From a virus: a DNA stretch of 21,084 nt. The translations under genes were made by a program, and so were the position numbers. How positions within the stretch are numbered: position 1 is the first letter of the stretch; the number at the start of each line of letters is the position of its first letter. Below the pieces are notes generated by a model that saw nothing but the letters and a program-made list of their open reading frames with translations, searched no databases and was not told where the DNA came from. Shown here in pieces: positions 6,639-21,084 of the stretch. The stretch lies in the IMG/VR virus record IMGVR_UViG_3300048837_000493, positions 1 to 21,084 of that record. One strand, 5' to 3'.

Positions 6639-7065
6639 GCAAGGCACATTCGGCCGCCACCTGCATCAGCGGGGCGTCGGCCGCCAGCTCGTCGGCCTCG
6701 GCCTTCACCGCGGCCAGGAAGTCGTCCAGCCGCATCGGCGCGGCCATGCCGTCGAGCTGCACCATCAGGTCGGGGAACTGGGCCCGGATCTGAGCGAGGC
6801 GCATATCGCCGGCCTGCTGTTCAGCCTGAGCGCCAGGAGTCTCCGGCGCTTCCGCTTCGTCGGCAAACAAGGGCCGACCTTCCTTGACCGCTGCGTCGAT
6901 CTCGGCTTGCGCCTCATCTGTTCTGGCCAGGGCCTCGCGTACAGCCGAGGCCGCGTCTGGTGCGCCTTCCGCGCGCCCAGCCTCGTACGCGCGCGTGATC
7001 TCCGCGATACGTGCGGCACTGAGATAAGGCGCGGCCTCTGACAGGCACTTTGCAAAGCTAGGCAT
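6622..7065 (-). CDS. Acidic hypothetical protein
   Basis: A 147-aa protein I do not recognise with certainty. ATG at 7065-7063 has GGAG six bases upstream and overlaps the preceding TAG by 8 bases, which suggests translational coupling; longer in-frame starts would run through the repeat gene. The N-terminus (MPSFAKCLSEAAPYLSAARI) and residues to about 65 are amphipathic helix. The centre is Glu/Ala/Pro-rich, and the C-terminal 50 residues (VQLDGMAAPMRLDDFLAAVK, then QVAAECALLNG) look like a compact conserved helical unit. Similar ends occur on larger polyvalent phage proteins in my recollection, so this could be a detached module that works with the 836-aa protein, but that is inference. The 207-base space before the next minus-strand gene is filled by the plus-strand membrane gene. 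Confidence 0.72.
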   Translation of the reverse strand: MPSFAKCLSEAAPYLSAARIAEITRAYEAGRAEGAPDAASAVREALARTDEAQAEIDAAVKEGRPLFADEAEAPETPGAQAEQQAGDMRLAQIRAQFPDLMVQLDGMAAPMRLDDFLAAVKAEADELAADAPLMQVAAECALLNGTA

Positions 7066-8383
7066 CCATCTCTCCCAACATGGCCACCACCGCCAACACC
7101 TGTACGACGATGGTCTGCACGCGAGCCAACTCGCGCACGCGAACATCCTCGCCGGAGACAAGGTTGCCGTTGCGGCTGAACCAGCCGAGGCTGATCACCT
7201 CATCGCCTGCTGCGCCATCGGTGCCCTCACCCGCAGCGACGACATGCACCACCGCCGCCCCGCCGCCCGAGGCGTGCTCGGCGGCGGTGCCTTCGCCGAT
7301 GGCCGAGATCTGCACGACGGCGTCGCCGCCGCCGCTGTGGTGTTCGGCGCCGTCCTCGGTGGCAAAGCCCTCGCCCTCGGCCGAGATCTGCACCACCGCA
7401 TCGCCGCCACCCGAGGCGTGCTCAGCAGCCGTGCCGGCACCCGCTGCCGCGACGTGCACGGTGGCATCGCTGCCCCCGCTGGCGTGCTCTGCAGCGGCGC
7501 CCTCGCCAACGGCCAGCACGCTGACGGCTGCATCGCCGCCGCCGGCGGCATGCTCGGCCGCGGTGCCCTCGCCAGCAGCCGAGATCACGACGACCGCGTC
7601 ACCGCCGCCGCTGTAGTCTTCGCTGCCGCCGCCACTGCTCACCGGCACCCAGATCCGCCGCGGCGCAAACAGCGCCCAGGGGTTGGCGTGCAACTCGCTG
7701 ATCTGCTCGTCGCTGATCGCCCAGCCGCTGATCAGCGCGCCGTACAGCAACTGGTCGTGCCCGTCGCGCCCCAGAGTGGCCGTGCCCCACTCGTCGAACA
7801 CCAGCGAGCCGGTGTTGGTGGTGTCGATCGTCTCGTCGCGACGGCGCTTGCCGGTCAGCTCCAGCGTCGTCAGCCGCGTGTCGGTGGCACTGAGCGCGCG
7901 GCCCACCAGCAGGAACACGCGCCCGGCAATCGGCTGGGCGGTGGCGCCGTCGGTCGTCCATGCCTGCTGCACGAACGGGCCGCCGTAATCGTTGCGGGCC
8001 TGGAACTGCCAGACGTAGCCACCGCGCGCGATGCCCACGATATCGCCCGAACTCGCCCCGCTTGGGCCGGAGAACACGCATGTGTTGCCGGCGCCTCCAG
8101 AGCCCGAGAGCACGCGCACCATCGCCAGGCAGGTGAGCGGCTGGCCCCCGCCGTGCAGCAACTGGCCGTTGCCGGGGCCGGATACCTCCGCCGCGCCCGC
8201 CAGGGCCAGCCCGTCAGGCGTGGCCTGCGCCGGCCCGCCAGATCCGGCGTACAGCAGCGGCGCGGGCGGGACATTGCCGCCCACCGTGAGGGCCAGCATG
8301 CGCCCGCCCACCCAGTCGGCCAGGCGCACATCGGCGCCCTGCGGCTGGCGCGTCCAGGGTCGCCGGATCTCGCGCAGTGCCAC
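7058..8383 (-). CDS. LamG-like virion protein with 22-residue tandem repeats
   Basis: A 441-aa probable tail appendage protein. It begins at GTG 8383-8381, with GGGGC about eight bases upstream, 13 bases after the previous stop. Residues about 40-240 read as a concanavalin/LamG-type beta-sandwich: LHGGGQPLTCLAMVRV, CVFSGPSG, FLLVGRALS, and GALISGWAISDEQISELHAN then PWALFAPRR, a phrase typical of phage LamG-like proteins. Residues 257-394 are six copies of a 22-residue unit, consensus SGGGDAVVxISAxGEGTAAEHA; the fourth copy carries four extra residues. A short C-terminal domain follows (ISLGWFSRNGNLVSGEDVRV), ending in a hydrophobic stretch at 420-436. I infer carbohydrate or receptor binding plus a repeat stalk. 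It sits between two ejection-type genes, among other small virion genes. Confidence 0.78.
   Translation of the reverse strand: MALREIRRPWTRQPQGADVRLADWVGGRMLALTVGGNVPPAPLLYAGSGGPAQATPDGLALAGAAEVSGPGNGQLLHGGGQPLTCLAMVRVLSGSGGAGNTCVFSGPSGASSGDIVGIARGGYVWQFQARNDYGGPFVQQAWTTDGATAQPIAGRVFLLVGRALSATDTRLTTLELTGKRRRDETIDTTNTGSLVFDEWGTATLGRDGHDQLLYGALISGWAISDEQISELHANPWALFAPRRIWVPVSSGGGSEDYSGGGDAVVVISAAGEGTAAEHAAGGGDAAVSVLAVGEGAAAEHASGGSDATVHVAAAGAGTAAEHASGGGDAVVQISAEGEGFATEDGAEHHSGGGDAVVQISAIGEGTAAEHASGGGAAVVHVVAAGEGTDGAAGDEVISLGWFSRNGNLVSGEDVRVRELARVQTIVVQVLAVVAMLGEMDA
7202..7615 (-). repeat. Six imperfect 66-bp in-frame tandem repeats
   Basis: Each unit encodes about 22 residues built on SGGGDAVVxISAxGEGTAAEHA. 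On the minus strand they run 7615 to 7202: units at residues 257-279, 280-301, 302-323, 324-349 (with a GAEH-type insertion), 350-371 and 372-394. Units 1, 4 and 5 are the closest to one another, and the last is the most diverged. In-frame tandem repeats of this kind can change copy number by recombination or slippage without breaking the gene. Confidence 0.85.
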
Positions 8384-8787: not shown

Positions 8788-9117
8788 TCACGCCCCGACC
8801 GTGATGCTCGTGCTCGCCGCCAGCAGCGTGTACGTGCCCGGGTTGCTGTAGTCGCGCTCAGTGACCGCTGCGCCACCGTAGTCGGTGCCGCCGCTGCTGG
8901 CGCTGTAGCCGCGCCACGCGGCCACCTCGTCGCCGGCCTCGGTCGTGAAGACCAGATTGGCGTCCGGCCGCAGCACGGCACCGGTCTGGTCCCAGGTCAC
9001 GGCCTGGCGCGCGTAGCCGCCGCCGGAAAGCTCGGTGCCGCCCGAGTCGACCAGGCCGATGTGGGTGATGAGTGTGGCGCCTTCGGCCGCCAGCGCTGCG
9101 TGGAATGTGGAGTTCAT
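8788..9117 (-). CDS. Small phage structural protein with GGGYARQAVTW motif
   Basis: A 109-aa beta-rich protein, ATG at 9117-9115, four bases after the previous stop. Key phrases are THIGLVDSGGTELSGGGYAR and QAVTWDQ (residues 18-44), VAAWRGYSASSGGTDYGGA (about 65-83) and GTYTLLAASTSITV near the C-terminus. I recognise this layout (IGL-D-x-GTEL-GGGYARQ-TW, WR-GYSA-GGTDYGG, AGTYTLLAAST) from small proteins coded beside tail-fibre genes in many phages, where the role is structural but undefined. The start site has only a weak purine run ahead of it, so translation is probably coupled to the gene before it. Confidence 0.75.
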   Translation of the reverse strand: MNSTFHAALAAEGATLITHIGLVDSGGTELSGGGYARQAVTWDQTGAVLRPDANLVFTTEAGDEVAAWRGYSASSGGTDYGGAAVTERDYSNPGTYTLLAASTSITVGA

Positions 9118-14092: not shown

Positions 14093-16330
14093 TCAGCCCC
14101 CGTTGACCGTGTGCCGGCGCACCACCGCCAGCAGGTGCATCGGGTACGGCTTGCTCTGCACCACCGACAGGTCGGCGTCGCCCTTGTCCCAGCCCAGCAG
14201 GCTGGCGGCATACAACCCGGTGAACATCTCCGGCGCCTGGTCGAGCACGCCCACGCCGAGCTGCCGGAACGGCAGGTCCTGCGCGCTCTTGACCTCGCCG
14301 CGGACGCTGCTCTCGACGCGCGCGCTGATGGTGTCCAGGAACCGCAGCGTCACCTGCCCGGTACGCGCAGCCTGCGCCTGCGACGATCCCATCGCGGTGC
14401 CGAACTCAGGCGGCATCAGGCCGACCCGGCTCTCGAACGGCAGCCCCACGAGCACGCGCTTTGCGCGCCGCGGCAGCGCAACCGTGGTGCCGCCCACGGG
14501 GCACTGCCCCAGGTCGGTGGCGTCGCCGACAACAGCCACCTCCGCGCCGGCCAGGTGCGCAACCGTCACCGCGTCCACGCCCGAGGCGTCATCCACCACG
14601 ATGGCGCAGTCGGCCGTGTAGCCGTAGTCCCGGCCGTCCCCCTCGACCGAGGGATGGAACGGATCCCAGGTGTGCTCCATGCGCTCGATGTAGCGGCAGA
14701 CCTCGCCGTTGATCGTGCGGCGCACCAGCAGCCACAGGTACTCGCTGTCTTCGTGCGGCAGCACGGCGCAGCACTCGATCACCCCGGCTGTGTCGTGCCG
14801 GGCCCAGGCCACCACGGTCGGCTGCTGGTCGCGGTCGAAGGTGCACGACAGCAGGCCGCCGTCGGCGGTCACGCCCCAGATGATCGGGTCTGGCAACTGC
14901 TGGTAGGCCATCCACACGATGCCCGCCTTCGTCAGGTGCTCGGCAAGCGCGCTCATGTCCACCGCCGAGTAGGCGTCGAAGTCGTAGCGGTAGCCGTAGC
15001 CGCGCAGCCGCGTGCCGCCGCGCTGCACGAACATCACCTCGCGCCCCACCGTCACCGGGCGCACAGCCGCGCATCCCACGTTGCTGTCGGAGTTGACGCG
15101 CACGTTCGTGGGCGTCAGCGGCTTCTCGACCCCGCCGCGCATCGTCACCTCGGCCGACTCGGTGAACACCGCCAGCTCGCGCGTGCTGCTGACGAAAGCG
15201 ATGGGGCTGGCCTCGTCGCCGTCCATCGTGAACGCGAAGGCGTCGTCGTCGTTGGTGCCGCGCAGGAAGTCCAGCGACTCTCCCAGGCGCGAGCCCCAGA
15301 CCGTGCGCGGGTACTTGGCCGAGCCGGCGCAGATCAGCCGCTGCTGGTGCACGGTGCCGGTGCGCGGGTAGCCGCGGGCAGCGCTCCAGATCGGCGGCTC
15401 CAGGCTCCACGCCAGCGCCTGCGCGGCCACTGTCGCCGACAGCTCCTTCAGGATCACCGCGTTGACCGACGTGGCGCTGCTGTACGCGCTGATGCGCAGC
15501 AGGCCGCCGTTGATCCGCACGATGCTGCCCACGTCGCCAGGACGCCAGCCCGCAATGTCCAGCGCCAGCGTCGTCGTTGCGCCGACCGGGTCCTTTGCGC
15601 CCGGCGTGCACTCTGCCTGGGGGCTGATGTCGATGGTCCACTGCCCGGCGATCAGCGTCGCCGACGGGAAGGCGCGCGTGATCTCCACCGTCACCTGCGT
15701 GGTGCTGGTGTAGCCGGTGATCACCGCGAGGCCGGATTCGGCCACCACGCCGCGGCCGACATCCGAGGCCAGGAATACGGGCGCCTCCGCGTTCAGCGTC
15801 CGGCCAGCGCCCACCGTGACGGCCGACAGGACCGCGTTCGTTGACGCCAGAATCCCGGCCTCGTCGTGGGGCACCTGCGTGAACGGCGCCGGCGAAAGCA
15901 CCCACGCTCCACCGTCGAGCAACTGCAGCCGCTGCACCGGGTAGCCCGGGTGGAACAGCCACATGGTGCTGTCGGCCTGCGCCCAGTCCAGCGCGGCCAG
16001 GTCGCCAGTCGTGTAGGGGGTGGCCAGCGTGGTGCTGGTCAGCGTGCCGTCGGCTGCGAACACCCGGCACGTCAGGTTGCCCAGCTCGACCAGGAACGCA
16101 GCATCACGCCCGGCGACGAACGGCAGCAGGATCGTGGCGTTTGCCGTGGTCGACGTGCTGGCCCCGAGAAACCGCGTGCCCGGCCGGCGCCGCACGCCGC
16201 CCTGCTGCACCGGGTAGGCGTTGCGGCAGCGCTTGAGCGCCGTCGCGTAGCGGTCGAAGTCCGTCCGGCCTTGCGCCTTGGGCGACCACTCGCCGCCGGT
16301 GAACGCCGTCTGGTTCAGGTTCGCCCGCAT
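14093..16330 (-). CDS. Tail tubular protein B (T7 gp12-like nozzle)
   Basis: A 745-aa protein (T7 gp12: 794 aa) that forms the tail nozzle below the gp11-like ring. ATG at 16330-16328 overlaps the previous stop as TGATG; the longer open frame to 16759 is only a shadow of the gp11-like gene. The N-terminus is diagnostic: NLNQTAFTGGEWSPKAQGRT then DFDRYATALKRCRNAYPVQQ and GGVRRRPGTRFLG, as in gp12-family proteins. Later hallmarks are PFVAGRDAAFLVELGN, HPGYPVQRLQL, the PRTVWGSRLGESLDF block with DDDAFAF, and SSTRELAVFTESAEVTMRGG. The remaining strands build the nozzle propeller. It is co-transcribed with tail tubular protein A. Confidence 0.93.
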   Translation of the reverse strand: MRANLNQTAFTGGEWSPKAQGRTDFDRYATALKRCRNAYPVQQGGVRRRPGTRFLGASTSTTANATILLPFVAGRDAAFLVELGNLTCRVFAADGTLTSTTLATPYTTGDLAALDWAQADSTMWLFHPGYPVQRLQLLDGGAWVLSPAPFTQVPHDEAGILASTNAVLSAVTVGAGRTLNAEAPVFLASDVGRGVVAESGLAVITGYTSTTQVTVEITRAFPSATLIAGQWTIDISPQAECTPGAKDPVGATTTLALDIAGWRPGDVGSIVRINGGLLRISAYSSATSVNAVILKELSATVAAQALAWSLEPPIWSAARGYPRTGTVHQQRLICAGSAKYPRTVWGSRLGESLDFLRGTNDDDAFAFTMDGDEASPIAFVSSTRELAVFTESAEVTMRGGVEKPLTPTNVRVNSDSNVGCAAVRPVTVGREVMFVQRGGTRLRGYGYRYDFDAYSAVDMSALAEHLTKAGIVWMAYQQLPDPIIWGVTADGGLLSCTFDRDQQPTVVAWARHDTAGVIECCAVLPHEDSEYLWLLVRRTINGEVCRYIERMEHTWDPFHPSVEGDGRDYGYTADCAIVVDDASGVDAVTVAHLAGAEVAVVGDATDLGQCPVGGTTVALPRRAKRVLVGLPFESRVGLMPPEFGTAMGSSQAQAARTGQVTLRFLDTISARVESSVRGEVKSAQDLPFRQLGVGVLDQAPEMFTGLYAASLLGWDKGDADLSVVQSKPYPMHLLAVVRRHTVNGG

Positions 16331-16911
16331 CAGCGGACCCCGCGGTAGCGCGCCAGCATCAGCGGCGACTCGTCCAGCGCGTCGGGCTCGTCTTCCAGAC
16401 CGTCCACCGCGCGCGCCTGGCGCAGCACGTCGCGCATGACGGTCTCGACAAGCTGTTCCAGGCTGGTGCTCTGCGTGATGCCGTAGGAGAACACCGCGCG
16501 CATCACCTGGGTCATGCCCCAGACCAGCAGCGTGTCCCAGGTCGACGTGACTTCGTTGCGGAATACGTAGCGCAACTGCAGCGCCGAGGCGTCGCTCAGG
16601 ATCTTCCTGCCCTCGACCTTGTACGGGATGCGCTCCCCCTCGCGCCCAATCGACAGGACGCGCAGCAGGTCGCCCGGGACACTGAACTGCCGCGCGTAGT
16701 CGAAGGCCGGCGCGTCCATGTCGGGGTTGAGCACCACGCGCTTGACCGCGCAGTTCCACGGGTGCCGGCGCAGCACGTAGTCGCGCGCCGTCGGCCAGAT
16801 GTTCGCGGCCAGGCGTGCGCGGTCGCTGTCGTCCTCGAAGCTGCTGATCGGCGCATCGCCGAGCATCAGGAGCGCGTTGCTGCAGATCGAAACCGGCGTG
16901 GCGCTGGACAT
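16330..16911 (-). CDS. Tail tubular protein A (T7 gp11-like adaptor)
   Basis: A 193-aa protein, the same size as T7 gp11 (196 aa), forming the ring between portal and nozzle. ATG at 16911-16909 has a perfect GGAGG five bases upstream. The family pattern is clear: SICSNALLMLGDAPISSFED (residues 8-27), ARLAANIWPTARDYVLRRHP then WNCAVKR (32-58), and the FDYARQFSVPGDLLRVLSI block (69-89). The C-terminal helix is Glu/Arg-rich. It is the first gene after the hairpin terminator at 16919-16950, so its message is probably less abundant than that of the capsid and cement genes upstream. Confidence 0.93.
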   Translation of the reverse strand: MSSATPVSICSNALLMLGDAPISSFEDDSDRARLAANIWPTARDYVLRRHPWNCAVKRVVLNPDMDAPAFDYARQFSVPGDLLRVLSIGREGERIPYKVEGRKILSDASALQLRYVFRNEVTSTWDTLLVWGMTQVMRAVFSYGITQSTSLEQLVETVMRDVLRQARAVDGLEDEPDALDESPLMLARYRGVR

Positions 16912-16918
16912 GCTGCCT

Positions 16919-16950
16919 CCAAGAAAGACGGGGGCTCAGCGGCCCCCGTC
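16919..16950 (-). terminator. Hairpin terminator between cement and tail genes
   Basis: On the minus strand GACGGGGGC, a six-base loop CGCTGA, then GCCCCCGTC form a perfect nine-base-pair stem (positions 16950-16927), followed by TTTCTT. This is the layout of an intrinsic terminator read leftward. It sits in the 74-base gap after the cement gene, and its tail overlaps the ribosome binding site region of the gp11-like gene. The U-tract is short and interrupted, so partial readthrough is expected, as the tail genes need the same transcript. Read on the plus strand there is no T-run. Confidence 0.75.
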
Positions 16951-16985
16951 ACACCGAACCGCCGGGGTGGCGGCTGGCAACTGCA

Positions 16986-17450
16986 TCAGGCCTGCGGGCC
17001 AACCCAGTGGATCTCGATCTCGGCCTGCGCGTTGTCGGTCGGGTTGGCCGACAGCAGCGAGACGTAGACCTCCACCTCCTGCGTCATCACGCCGCCAGGG
17101 ATGCCGCCGACGAACAGCGAGCCGCTGTTCAGGTCCTTCGCGCCGGCCGCGGCGATGTCCAGGCCGTCGGCGATGCCGTCGACGTCGACCACTGTGCCGT
17201 CGAGAGCGCGGATGCCGACATCGGCGGTCACCGAGGAACCGAACGCCGCGTGCTGCAGCTTGCCGCTGCGCAGAATGCGCGCGCCCTTCGGGATCTTGAT
17301 CCCGGTGTTCCAGGTGTCGTTCTGCGCCCAAGCCGCGACGGCCGGCGTGGTGGCCACCGCCACGTGCACGCGGCCATCGTCGTAGGGCGCGGTCTTGACC
17401 GGCGGCACCGCCTCGCGGGCGGCCAGCTGGAGGGAGTCGAATTCGGGCAT
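16986..17450 (-). CDS. Capsid cement/decoration protein (BPP-1 Bbp16-like)
   Basis: A 154-aa beta-rich protein coded directly after the major capsid gene. ATG at 17450-17448 has a strong AAGGAG eight bases upstream. After a short tail (MPEFDSLQLAAREAVPP) the pattern is of alternating strands: RVHVAVATTPAVAAW, NTGIKIPKGARILRSGKLQH, ADVGIRALDGTVVDVDG, SLFVGGIPGG, TQEVEVYVSLLSANP and QAEIEIHWVG. This agrees with the jellyroll cementing proteins of BPP-1-like podoviruses that lock capsomers at their junctions. Composition, length and position support the call; no catalytic role is expected. Confidence 0.75.
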   Translation of the reverse strand: MPEFDSLQLAAREAVPPVKTAPYDDGRVHVAVATTPAVAAWAQNDTWNTGIKIPKGARILRSGKLQHAAFGSSVTADVGIRALDGTVVDVDGIADGLDIAAAGAKDLNSGSLFVGGIPGGVMTQEVEVYVSLLSANPTDNAQAEIEIHWVGPQA

Positions 17451-17476
17451 GTTGCTGCTCCTTCAGGTGCGGCCGA

Positions 17477-18376
17477 TCAGAAGCCGGTGTTGGTCATGAA
17501 GTCGATCTGCACGACCTTCTTCTCGTCCTGGCGCGTGGCGCCCAGCGAGAGCCAGCCGTAGACCTCGGTCGGGTGGCCGCGCTTGGCCTTGTTCTGGCCC
17601 ACGTCGGTGCGCACGTCGATGCCGGTGCCGAACTGCACTGCGCCCTTGGTCCAGGCCACGGTGCGGTTCGTGTTTGCGGCCGGCGCGTCCAGCGCCTGGT
17701 AGGGGATCCAGGTGAACCCCATCCAGTTCTTGGCGACCTGGCCGGCCTGCAGCATCTGCACGGCCATGAAGTCGGCGCTCGTCAGCGTGGTGTCGGCCAT
17801 GATCTGGCGCGCCTGCACCGCGTTGTAGGCCATGAACAGCTCGGTGCCCTCGTCCACCTCGTTGGTCATGAACAGCGACCGGGCCTGGATGATCTTGGCC
17901 TTGGTGAACGCAGTGCTGCCCGCGGCGATCTGCTGGCCGGAGGGAAGCGTGGTCGTGGTGATCGAGCCGCCTTCCGTCGTGCGGGTCAGCGAGCCATCGA
18001 GCAGCGCCCGATAGATCGTCTTGTTCTTGCGGCGGTTGGCGGCGGCCACCAGGATCTCGACGTACTTGAACGTCGGGTCGGCGACCATCTTGGCCAGATC
18101 GAAGCCGTCGACCACCATCGGGCCGATGTCGAAGTCGGCCATGTACGCCAGGCGCGTCTCGTGCGCGATCTCGGCGGCTTCCTTGTCCTGGTAGCGGCCG
18201 GTGACCTCGCGCGCTTCGGTCGTGCCGACGTTGTTGGTCGTGAAGCTGGAGCCGGAGATCATGCCGCGGTCCGTCACGGTGGACTGGAAGCGGCTGTCCT
18301 TCTGCTGCAGCGCGTGGATGAAGGTGTCGTGGAACTGCTGCTTGAACGCAGTGGTGATGGTCGGCGAAGTGGACAT
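17477..18376 (-). CDS. Major capsid protein (BPP-1 Bbp17 type)
   Basis: A 299-aa capsid subunit. ATG at 18376-18374 has GAGGG four to five bases upstream. N-terminal residues MSTSPTITTAFKQQFHDTFI and LQQKDSRFQSTVTDRGMISG lead to a helix-strand body: REVTGRYQDKEAAEIAHETR, DFDIGPMVVDGFDLAKMVAD, VEILVAAANRRKNKTIYRAL, and the C-terminal block KNWMGFTWIPYQALDAPA with YGWLSLGATRQDEKKVVQID. This is the pattern of the Bbp17 family of capsid proteins, whose founding member has a topologically permuted HK97-like fold. Scaffold upstream and cement downstream agree. The five-prime untranslated gap of 169 bases is the longest in the operon and holds hairpins, consistent with special control of this highly expressed gene. 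Confidence 0.87.
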   Translation of the reverse strand: MSTSPTITTAFKQQFHDTFIHALQQKDSRFQSTVTDRGMISGSSFTTNNVGTTEAREVTGRYQDKEAAEIAHETRLAYMADFDIGPMVVDGFDLAKMVADPTFKYVEILVAAANRRKNKTIYRALLDGSLTRTTEGGSITTTTLPSGQQIAAGSTAFTKAKIIQARSLFMTNEVDEGTELFMAYNAVQARQIMADTTLTSADFMAVQMLQAGQVAKNWMGFTWIPYQALDAPAANTNRTVAWTKGAVQFGTGIDVRTDVGQNKAKRGHPTEVYGWLSLGATRQDEKKVVQIDFMTNTGF

Positions 18377-18501
18377 GGTTCCCTCGTGGAATCAGGTCGC
18401 CTATCGCGGGTGTCCCATCGGGGCCGCAGGTGCAGCAGATCAGCGCGGCGCGTGGCTGTCGGCTGGGCTCACACCCGGTATCCGGCTGCCACACCGGGCG
18501 G

Positions 18502-18523
18502 GGTGCCGGCAATGTCCGGCACC
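18502..18523 (-). other. Perfect 8-bp hairpin upstream of capsid gene
   Basis: GGTGCCGG and CCGGCACC form a perfect inverted repeat around a six-base loop, two bases after the 20-bp repeat on the minus strand. No T-run follows. Confidence 0.65.
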
Positions 18524-18525
18524 TG

Positions 18526-18545
18526 CCCGTTCGGAATCCCGTCCG
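18526..18545 (-). repeat. 20-bp perfect direct repeat, copy 2
   Basis: Minus-strand CGGACGGGATTCCGAACGGG, beginning immediately after the scaffold stop codon. It is identical to the copy at 1983-2002 inside the terminase gene. In both places a hairpin follows within two to four bases. Confidence 0.85.
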
Positions 18546-19469
18546 CTACGCCCTCTCTTGGTTCGGGTACTTCTTGGCGTAGAGCGCCTGCACCTTGCGC
18601 ACCGTCGCCGCGTGGTCCTGGTGCGCCGAGTCCAGGTAGGCGGCCGATCCCATCATCGACTCCAGCGTGTCGCTCTCGGCCTGCGTGATGCCGGCCGGCG
18701 GGCTGTCCTCGTGCAACTCGTTGCCGATGCGCGCCATGAGCCGGATGAAGTCCGGGTCGTTGCCGAACTTCGCGTCCAGCCTTGCCCGCGTCTCGTCGTC
18801 GCCTGCGTAGGCTGCGGTCGCGCGGTAGGACTGCGCCAGGCCGCGCTGCAGTTGCTCGTCGCTCGCCCAGGTCTTGCGCAGGTCGGCCTCGGCGCCGGCG
18901 ACATCGGGCTGCAGCGCCATCGCGTAGTGGTCGAGCACGTAGCCCAACTGCGCGTTGGTCATGCCGCGGGCATGCGCGCCCTTCAGGAAGCCCTGGTACT
19001 TCGGATCGGCCTTGAGCTTGTCCAGGCTGATGCCAGCCGTCACCGCGGGGGCATAGTCCTCGGGCGCCTTCGGCGGCGCGTCGCCCGAGCCCAGGCGCTT
19101 GGACAGCGAGTCGTAGCCGCCGGCCTGCTTCAGCGCCGTCGCTTCCCAGTCCGTCGTGCCGTCTTCGCGCTTGACGAGGTACTTCTCGGGCACGGCTGGG
19201 GGCTGCCCGCCATCTCCTGCTGGCGCTGGTGCAGCGCTTGATCCAGCAGGCGCAGGTGCGGCGCCGCGAGAAAGCAGGCTGCCAGGTGCCGGAGCTGGTG
19301 CAGCTGGTGCACCGTCCGCAGCCGGGGCACTTGTGCCAGCAGGGCCGGGAGCAGGTGCGGGGGCGGCGGGGGCGGCGGGGGCCGGCGCAGCAGCAGCCGG
19401 CGCGGGAACAGTGGCCGCAGCACCGCTGCCAGCCGTCGCGTCCATGAGAAAGGGGAAGTGGTCACGCAT
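18546..19469 (-). CDS. Head assembly scaffold-like protein, Ala/Pro-rich N-terminus
   Basis: A 307-aa protein directly before the major capsid gene, the usual place for a scaffold (T7 gp9 is 307 aa as well). ATG at 19469-19467 has GGAG five bases upstream. Residues about 11-93 (bases 19439-19191) are almost only Ala, Pro, Gly and Ser, a disordered low-complexity arm. From residue 94 a typical scaffold-type body begins: VPEKYLVKREDGTTDWEATA, KQAGGYDSLSKRLGSGDAPP then KAPEDYAP. Helices rich in Leu/Ala/Glu (GMTNAQLGYVLDHYAMAL) and a basic C-terminal helix (AATVRKVQALYAKKYPN) follow; the basic end is where scaffolds usually contact the capsid protein. Function is inferred from position, composition and the PEDY-type phrase. 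Confidence 0.78.
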   Translation of the reverse strand: MRDHFPFLMDATAGSGAAATVPAPAAAAPAPAAPAAPAPAPGPAGTSAPAADGAPAAPAPAPGSLLSRGAAPAPAGSSAAPAPAGDGGQPPAVPEKYLVKREDGTTDWEATALKQAGGYDSLSKRLGSGDAPPKAPEDYAPAVTAGISLDKLKADPKYQGFLKGAHARGMTNAQLGYVLDHYAMALQPDVAGAEADLRKTWASDEQLQRGLAQSYRATAAYAGDDETRARLDAKFGNDPDFIRLMARIGNELHEDSPPAGITQAESDTLESMMGSAAYLDSAHQDHAATVRKVQALYAKKYPNQERA

Positions 19470-19536
19470 CGTCTCTCCATGGCCGGCCTACGGATGACGG
19501 TGCGCGCCGGGCCGGCTCACGACGCAGCGCCGAGTA

Positions 19537-19770
19537 TCAGGTGCGCTGCGGCAGTGGCTCGGCCTTGGCCAGCGTGCTGACGATGTGCTCGATCACCGAC
19601 TTCTGCCCGCACTTGAACGCGGTCACGTCGGGCTGGCCAGGCGCGAATGACGGCCCGCCGAAGCGCTCGATCAGGTCGTCGAGCACGGCCCGCGCGTCCG
19701 GGTTGAACTCGAACGTGGCGTGGTACTGCTGCGGCGTGGCCATCACCGTACGCGCCGGCGGCGTGCGCAT
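19537..19770 (-). CDS. Bbp19-like conserved small phage protein
   Basis: A 77-aa protein placed between the phosphatase and scaffold genes. ATG at 19770-19768 is preferred because GAGGA lies seven bases upstream; an internal ATG at 19743 has a weaker site. The core ARAVLDDLIERFGGPSFAPG then QPDVTAFKCGQKSVIEHIVS (residues 26-65) follows the pattern of the small Bbp19-family proteins found before the scaffold gene in BPP-1-like phages: a helix, an F-x-PG-x-P turn, AF-x-x-GQ and a closing helix. The family's job is not known to me; its location suggests an assembly or portal-associated role. Confidence 0.75.
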   Translation of the reverse strand: MRTPPARTVMATPQQYHATFEFNPDARAVLDDLIERFGGPSFAPGQPDVTAFKCGQKSVIEHIVSTLAKAEPLPQRT

Positions 19771-19780
19771 CCACGATTCC

Positions 19781-20962
19781 TCACGCCCTCACCGCCGCCG
19801 GCTCGGCGTAGATCGGCAGGTTCGAGCGCGGGGCGAACTCCGCGGCCCACACCTCGCTGTTGGTGCGCGCGTTGCGCACCGCGATGCGCAGCCCGCCCTC
19901 AGCCGTGCGCGCGATCTGGCCGTAGACGTTGACGTTGGCGTACCAGCGCAGCTGTGCATAGCGGCCCTGTGCCGCCGTCCCGGGCCCGCCGCCGTTGTTG
20001 ATGGGCTGCCCCGCCGGGCACGCACAGATGTCTATCAAATCAGCGGCGTCCCCGTTCGCCACGCTGGCCTGAGCAACCTGCGGCGTGTGGCGGTCGCCTG
20101 AGCACCAAATCACGCGCGCGCCGCTGGCCTGGATCGCGCTCAGAACCTGGTTGCGATTGGCGCTGTACTCGCCCCAGGTGTCGCTGTTGTCGCTCCCGCT
20201 CGACGCGCGAAACAGTTTCTTCGGGCTCATGACCACGATGTGCGCGAACCCCGCCGCGTGCGCCTGCACGATCTGCTCCAACAACCACGCCTGCTGTGTG
20301 GCGCCCAGCATCACCTTGGCTGCCGTGTCCGGCTCGGCGAGCACGCTGCGGTAGGTGATGCAGTCCGGCACGATCACGCGCAGCCACGTGCCGCCGGGCT
20401 CGAAGCCGGGGCCGTAGTCGTTCACGAAGTAGCGCTTGAGGTACTTCGCGGCGTGGCTGGCGTTGCTGCCGCTAGGGTAGTCGCCCTCGGTGTTGGCGCC
20501 GGGGGCGGGGTTGTCGTAGTACTGCCCGGGGCCGCTGCCGATGCACTGGATTGACGCCTGCGCCATGCGCTGATAACCGTCGGCCAAGTCGTCGACGTTG
20601 GCAGCACCCAGGCTGGGTGCACCGTTGGCCTGCACGAGGCTGTGGTCCCAGTTGTCGCCGTAGTACTCGTGGTCGTCGGCCATGTGGTACACGCGCAGGG
20701 CGCCGGCCGCGCGTGCGGTCTTGAGCTTGGCGAAGCCGTGTTTGGCCCACATCTGGTCGTGGCGGCGCTTAATGTCGGCCACGGTGGCATTGCCGGGCAG
20801 CCTCACCTTGTCCACGTCCTCGTTGAACCCGTAACCGGCGCCGAAGTCGCCGCAATAGGGTACGTCGCCGATCATGTACAAGTCGCGCACGCCGGCACGC
20901 AGGATGAACTGCGCGCACCACAGCGGTACATGGAGGTGTTGGCATGACATCCATGCAATCAC
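19781..20962 (-). CDS. PhoD-like metallophosphatase
   Basis: A 393-aa phosphoesterase of the alkaline phosphatase D family, which hydrolyses phosphomono- or diesters with Ca/Fe-type metals. Start is GTG 20962-20960, with GGAGG five bases upstream, overlapping the previous stop as GTGA. Motifs in family order: MSCQ with Cys7; IGDVPYCGD (Asp33, Tyr36); ADDHEYYGDNWD (residues 95-106); LGATQQAWLLEQI (219-231); SDTWGEYSANRNQVLSAI (260-277); and WCSGDRHTP (286-294). All the usual metal-site blocks are present, so it looks active. Unlike secreted bacterial PhoD it has no signal peptide or Tat motif, which suggests action in the cytoplasm or as part of the particle. It lies between the right-edge gene and the Bbp19-like gene in the head cluster. 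The fold is confident; the substrate is unknown. Confidence 0.87.
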   Translation of the reverse strand: MIAWMSCQHLHVPLWCAQFILRAGVRDLYMIGDVPYCGDFGAGYGFNEDVDKVRLPGNATVADIKRRHDQMWAKHGFAKLKTARAAGALRVYHMADDHEYYGDNWDHSLVQANGAPSLGAANVDDLADGYQRMAQASIQCIGSGPGQYYDNPAPGANTEGDYPSGSNASHAAKYLKRYFVNDYGPGFEPGGTWLRVIVPDCITYRSVLAEPDTAAKVMLGATQQAWLLEQIVQAHAAGFAHIVVMSPKKLFRASSGSDNSDTWGEYSANRNQVLSAIQASGARVIWCSGDRHTPQVAQASVANGDAADLIDICACPAGQPINNGGGPGTAAQGRYAQLRWYANVNVYGQIARTAEGGLRIAVRNARTNSEVWAAEFAPRSNLPIYAEPAAVRA

Positions 20963-21084
20963 GCCGGCCTCCGTAGCGATCGCGGGAACTCGAACCGGCT
21001 TGCCAACATGTCGGCGAACGCCAGACTTGCTGCGGTCTCGTCAATGCTGCTGCGGCGCTGAAACCACACGCCGCCCAGGCGCGT
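20959..21084 (-). CDS. C-terminal fragment of a gene cut by the right edge
   Basis: The last 41 codons of a minus-strand gene that enters from the right and ends at TGA 20961-20959, overlapping the phosphatase GTG by three bases. The visible residues begin TRLGGVWFQRRSSIDETAAS and continue LAFADMLASRFEFPRSLRRP. The overlap with the next gene's ribosome binding site, GC-rich third positions and uninterrupted frame argue that it is real. In this kind of operon the portal gene would be expected just here, but the fragment is too short and lacks a motif, so I do not name it. Confidence 0.55.
   Translation of the reverse strand, partial: TRLGGVWFQRRSSIDETAASLAFADMLASRFEFPRSLRRPA

Follow-up and report, generated by a model that had tools for sequence, protein, structure and literature searches.

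An intact PhoD-family phosphatase gene in the exchangeable portal-Bbp19 slot of a short-tailed phage as a candidate virion-borne enzyme for host-surface phosphoesters

Bacteria commonly display surface glycans that carry phosphate, and most coat-directed phage enzymes described to date either cleave sugars or take off acyl groups. Earlier work has established PhoD, the exchange of tailspikes, and the presence of phosphodiesterases in the tail modules of phages with Gram-positive hosts. PhoD enzymes hydrolyse both phosphomonoesters and diesters, and in the Bacillus subtilis enzyme the calcium site is formed by D265, D266, N271, N272 and D436; substituting C180, D207 or any of these five residues abolished or strongly reduced activity, with the N271A version being inactive (PMC4223295). 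Glycerophosphodiester phosphodiesterases found in enterococcal phage tail modules have been proposed to cut wall teichoic acid (PMC10194240). In the openly accessible literature searched, we found no report of PhoD in a virion, of PhoD as tailspike-slot cargo, or of a pairing between a LamG-like gene and PhoD.

The window, which is the entire 21,084-base virus contig that was analysed, carries its genes on the minus strand and comes from a short-tailed phage whose PhoD is an intact, cell-type phosphatase. The features around this gene are as follows:

20959..21084, minus strand: end of the upstream gene (its final 41 codons plus the stop), truncated where the contig stops; the gene is probably PhoD's ConA/LamG-like partner
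20968..20972, minus strand: ribosome-binding site GGAGG of the PhoD gene, 5 bases upstream of the GTG, read from the sequence
19781..20962, minus strand: PhoD-family phosphatase/phosphodiesterase, 393 aa, catalytic domain only, with a PF09423 match, a 2YEQ fold match and the metal ligands
19537..19770, minus strand: Bbp19-like gene (Pfam Phage_Bbp19 PF25181, 1.2e-11), at the same place in relatives and the fixed right-hand neighbour of the cargo slot
18546..19469, minus strand: scaffold-like protein gene (phrog_3742, 3e-33), with a homologue at the same place in YeP5 and others
17477..18376, minus strand: major capsid protein gene (PF19821, 1.9e-60; phrog_3437)

The PhoD open reading frame begins with a GTG start codon that is part of a 4-base GTGA overlap with the upstream gene (20959-20962), ends 10 bases before the Bbp19-like gene, and is followed beyond that gene by the scaffold-like, major capsid, tail tube and nozzle genes. 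This agrees with the overlap and the 10-base gap described in an earlier note on this DNA, and PhoD is co-oriented and tightly packed with virion genes. A search of 18400-21084 revealed neither sigma-70 promoter-like nor terminator-like sites, which fits co-transcription of PhoD with the virion genes but is no proof of it. The window contains no Rfam matches or tRNA genes, the region 17477-20962 has no DNA match among catalogued phages, and an exact-peptide scan using the window PhoD protein alone returned no close relative. Elsewhere in the window, the ORF at 7058-8383 (minus strand) encodes a 441-aa fibre-like protein with about five tandem 66-base units at 7245-7609, which produce an SGGGDAVV..GEGTAAEHA run near its C-terminus. 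A 109-aa protein encoded at 8788-9117 (minus strand) weakly resembles gp80, the fibre I protein of podophage GP4 (9.8e-5, below cut-off). On this match its gene may be a separate second fibre gene, located where one is expected, behind the genes for internal virion proteins.

The protein contains each of the PhoD blocks, namely SCQ (C7), GDVPY (D33, Y36), DDHE (D96, D97), LGATQQAWL and SGDRH (D290, H292). These motifs are not a chance resemblance, since the protein passes the curated threshold of Pfam PF09423 (2e-12, 47.3 bits against a cut-off of 27) and matches the B. subtilis PhoD fold across the whole domain. In an AlphaFold model generated with seven diverse phage homologues (pTM 0.85, mean pLDDT 75), the best match among solved structures is B. 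subtilis PhoD (2YEQ, Z 28.4, rmsd 3.1, 329 residues aligned), followed by purple acid phosphatases (Z 21.4), with SMPDL3A-type and other nucleotide-cleaving metallophosphatases at a Z of about 17. The Fe site is made of C7, Y36, D33 and H292, equivalent to C180, Y210, D207 and H438 of the B. subtilis enzyme, and all four residues are invariant across the seven phage homologues. At the Ca site, D96, D97, D103, N104 and D290 correspond to D265, D266, N271, N272 and D436, such that the change from N271 to D103 is the only one among the activity-critical residues; there is a one-residue insertion nearby, and the Asp is invariant in the seven-sequence phage alignment. Although Asp serves well as a Ca ligand, the N271A variant of the B. 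subtilis enzyme is inactive. Across phage PhoD homologues that are only about 30% identical, the catalytic ligands are invariant. The complete PhoD with all its named motifs that the earlier note had recognized is therefore upheld by both the Pfam and the fold match, and the metal ligands, whose loss that note had considered, are kept apart from the single Asn-to-Asp change. Its reading that the protein lacks a signal peptide was also correct, as the N-terminus, MIAWMSCQ, is already at the first core strand and no N-terminal PhoD_N domain is present. Extracytoplasmic cellular PhoD enzymes usually have an export signal, although it does not strictly define the family. The part of B. subtilis PhoD that aligns to the window protein stops at chain residue 489 of 522, and therefore the C-terminal helix that covers the B. 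subtilis active site is probably missing, leaving the site open. We infer that an open active site would suit a polymer substrate.

Searching IMG/VR with the capsid protein yielded 80 relatives, in none of which a PhoD occupies the slot between the portal and Bbp19 genes. These two genes abut in 61 of the 70 readable loci, and in eight loci, including that of the phage contig L012, 1.4-2.5 kb of cargo lies between them. The slot cargo proteins of the relatives show no similarity to one another: a polysaccharide deacetylase is found in L016, SGNH/GDSL hydrolases in L019, L023 and L027, and fibre-like proteins in others, with unrelated coat-active or fibre-type cargo present at the slot in L012, L016, L019, L022, L023, L026 and L027. 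The bodies of six first cargo genes are likewise unrelated, except that these genes have in common a short N-terminal anchor, M-x-M-x-ISGPPW-V-V, which begins about 10 bases past the portal gene. The anchor-bearing genes are:

L016, 3726-5084
L017, 3096-5453
L019, 4179-5324
L094, 78-1538, minus strand
L012, 3293-3721
L015, 2351-2575

Receptor-binding enzymes are known for this pattern, in which the anchor stays fixed while the body is exchanged, next to virion genes that are conserved. Because the cargo of relatives is varied while the anchor is common to six of them, the portal-Bbp19 slot appears to exchange tailspike or receptor-binding enzymes, and the anchor marks likely host-range genes of this phage group. 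The window PhoD itself has no anchor sequence, and the start of its upstream gene lies outside the contig.

The closest relative, L012, matches the window in one segment:

14662..19798, minus strand: segment shared with phage contig L012 (blastn, single match, 5,137 bases, 99.73% identity)

The identity breaks off at 19798, within the last five PhoD codons, and beyond this position the two sequences are unrelated; 19798 is thus the exchange point, inside the final codons of PhoD. In L012, two genes lie between portal and Bbp19: one of 142 aa, whose product starts MPISGPPWVVS, and one for a 539-aa beta-helix protein. The earlier note, which had placed PhoD inside the head-assembly cluster, did not mention that related phages carry variable cargo at this position. 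A place in the head-assembly machinery is not supported, as the gene lies between portal and Bbp19 in a slot where tailspike or receptor enzymes are exchanged.

Only the last 41 residues of the upstream gene are available, and a scan with the end sequence of the window found no overlapping contig. The fragment fits the C-terminus of a seven-member LamG-like profile, with 5 of 20,000 shuffles scoring as well, and is the best among 150 natural C-termini. Against smaller LamG-like profiles, 41 and 1003 of 20,000 shuffles were as good, and pairwise shuffle tests against single LamG-like proteins were not significant. The identification of the upstream gene as a ConA/LamG-like partner is suggestive only. 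A portal gene was rejected for this position, as the fragment is unlike any portal C-terminus and relatives have cargo between portal and Bbp19.

Homologous LamG-like genes of 257-373 aa directly precede PhoD in seven other phages (L002, which is MW202489, L009, L101, L102/L103, L104, L105 and L106), with the junctions that were measured ranging from a 1-base overlap to 9 bases. The LamG-like family is coherent (leave-one-out E 1e-10 to 1e-28), although its LamG or lectin label is tentative because the Pfam ConA-like lectin model is matched, weakly, by only one of the seven proteins; the profile has no match among PDB sequences. The pair follows the portal gene in L102/L103, the capsid gene in L105 and L106, and an endolysin gene in L101; in L104 it is flanked by head-tail connector genes, in L009 it adjoins spike-like and GH5 genes, and in L002 it separates terminase from portal. 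Its usual surroundings are thus head, connector or tail genes. The search for conserved synteny that the earlier note had called for is therefore answered in two ways: PhoD does not recur beside Bbp19 in the phage's own relatives, but the LamG-PhoD pair recurs in other phages, usually inside modules for the head, the connector or the tail.

A broader search of IMG/VR for PhoD returned 27 loci. In L101, the LamG-paired PhoD has a tail-spike domain (phrog_11182) at its end, and among more distant phage PhoDs, those of L108 and L115 are fused to the tail protein phrog_1887. Large phage proteins join PhoD to DUF5047 or DUF6093 (L108 6266-8647, L113 5351-8656, L115 5866-8274, L119 5636-8083). We dropped the idea that fused PhoDs carry a LamG-like domain, as the LamG-like profile has no match to their extra domains. 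In Streptomyces phage Daubenski, PhoD lies among tRNA genes, away from virion genes. Two non-exhaustive scans of about 85,000 species' genomes with short patterns returned only the phage contig L127 and one cellular PhoD, L128, which is the sole cellular relative found and has a signal-like start. L127 (JAOUNI010000022.1), binned in a gammaproteobacterial MAG, is identical to the IMG/VR phage contig L104 over 14,852 bases; it is a phage or prophage, and its bin hints at the host of the L104 phage.

Taken together, our preferred explanation, to which we give a probability of roughly 0.6, is that the window PhoD is the catalytic part of an exchangeable tailspike-like, virion-borne cassette that acts on host-surface phosphoesters with a LamG-like partner. 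Recombination would have placed this receptor-processing cassette between the portal and Bbp19 genes, and the phage would make the ConA/LamG-like lectin protein from the upstream gene together with PhoD. Both would be carried on the virion, where the lectin-like protein would join the particle to the host coat and PhoD would hydrolyse phosphomonoester or phosphodiester groups in a host surface polymer such as capsule or O-antigen. The proteins that relatives carry at the slot (SGNH hydrolases, a polysaccharide deacetylase and beta-helix proteins) presumably act on their own hosts' coats in a comparable way. We infer the identity of the partner gene, the presence on the particle, the mode of attachment, the enzymatic activity and the substrate. 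Weighing against this reading are the missing anchor on PhoD itself, the suggestive rather than firm LamG-like match of the truncated upstream gene, the tentative lectin label and the position of some phage PhoDs outside virion gene clusters, as in Daubenski. The earlier note had offered several options, and the best of them is a virion protein that acts on phospho-polymers of the host during entry. More broadly, it is possible, though we put this forward only tentatively, that a mainly phage-borne PhoD branch (DDHxxxG[D/S][N/D]WD) forms with the ConA/LamG-like gene a mobile two-gene receptor-processing module, which podo- and siphophages that are unrelated to each other insert near tailspike, portal or capsid genes.

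A virion enzyme need not process receptors, and PhoD could instead decorate the capsid or neck, for example freeing phosphate from phosphate-rich debris once the cell has lysed, or detaching particles from such debris. The pairs between head-tail connector genes in L104 and after the capsid gene in L105 and L106 are in line with this, as are the PhoD of Microbacterium phage Pioneer3, between capsid and head-to-tail stopper genes, and those of Dfl-JY23 and YongM, which adjoin a gene annotated as capsid fibre. We nevertheless consider decoration unlikely, given that the slot in this phage group holds tailspike-type cargo with a common anchor and that in L009 the pair adjoins GH5 and spike-like genes. 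The earlier note had also proposed the recycling of nucleotides or phosphate late in infection, for which PhoD would act inside the cell as an auxiliary enzyme. This would fit the missing signal peptide, the probable expression among late genes and the ability of PhoD enzymes to cut both monoesters and diesters (PMC4223295). However, PhoD occupies the interchangeable coat-enzyme slot of relatives, where it is exchanged with non-phosphatase, coat-active or fibre-type genes, and for this reason we favour a virion-borne surface enzyme over a metabolic gene. The pairing with a lectin-like gene and the fusions to tail domains also speak against such a role, and Fe/Ca loading in the cytoplasm would be less natural for a family that normally works outside it. 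Our evidence adds nothing in favour of recycling, which we regard as quite improbable.

The absence of PhoD from all of the capsid relatives could also mean that this cargo gene is neutral and does nothing for the phage. In accordance with this, a UV mutant of the Nostoc phage YongM with a one-base PhoD deletion is viable and close relatives are without the gene, showing that such a gene can be dispensable (PMC11356776). The catalytic ligands, however, are invariant despite low overall identity, the gene pair is conserved, and the ORF and ribosome site are intact, making neutrality very unlikely. The YongM mutant does not separate the readings, because tailspike-type enzymes are often dispensable on one laboratory host. 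Finally, a counter-defence enzyme destroying a host signalling nucleotide would draw on nothing more than the fold shared with SMPDL3A-type and other nucleotide-cleaving metallophosphatases, whose matches fall far below that of PhoD itself (Z about 17 versus 28), and the genomic context is virion structural rather than a counter-defence locus; we hold this to be extremely improbable.

If the tailspike-like, virion-borne reading is true, a PhoD on the particle would explain how some phages handle phosphorylated coats, would provide a tool for stripping or cutting phosphorylated polymers, and would mean that many phage genes annotated as 'PhoD' or 'alkaline phosphatase D' serve host recognition and not phosphate metabolism. 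Should the mobile module also exist, glycan cleavage and deacylation would be joined by a further chemistry, in which an Fe/Ca enzyme dephosphorylates surface glycans or cleaves their phosphodiester bonds. The portal-Bbp19 slot in turn makes likely host-range genes of this phage group findable by position.

Compared with known systems, the window protein resembles B. subtilis PhoD (2YEQ; PMC4223295) in its whole catalytic-domain fold, its Cys, Tyr, Asp and His ligands for Fe and Ca, and its GDxxY, DDHE and GDxH blocks, but differs in having no export signal, PhoD_N domain or sign of a C-terminal lid helix, in the replacement of Asn-271 by Asp, and in the location of its gene among phage virion genes. 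It is 32-35% identical over the full length to the PhoDs of L009 and of the uncultured phage MW202489 (Manatee Spring), which likewise have a short N-terminus without an Ig domain and are tightly packed in virion gene clusters, though their cassettes are inserted elsewhere: that of MW202489 separates terminase from portal, and that of L009 adjoins tailspike and GH5 genes. Like the enterococcal glycerophosphodiester phosphodiesterases (PMC10194240), it is a predicted phosphodiesterase among virion genes, although those enzymes belong to a different family and to phages of Gram-positive hosts. Lastly, the conserved anchor and swapped catalytic bodies at the relatives' portal-Bbp19 slot are like those of exchangeable tailspike depolymerases and esterases, for example the tailspikes of Przondovirus (PMC12692247), whereas in the window the catalytic body is a metallophosphatase encoded by a separate gene, next to a partner whose gene start lies beyond the contig.
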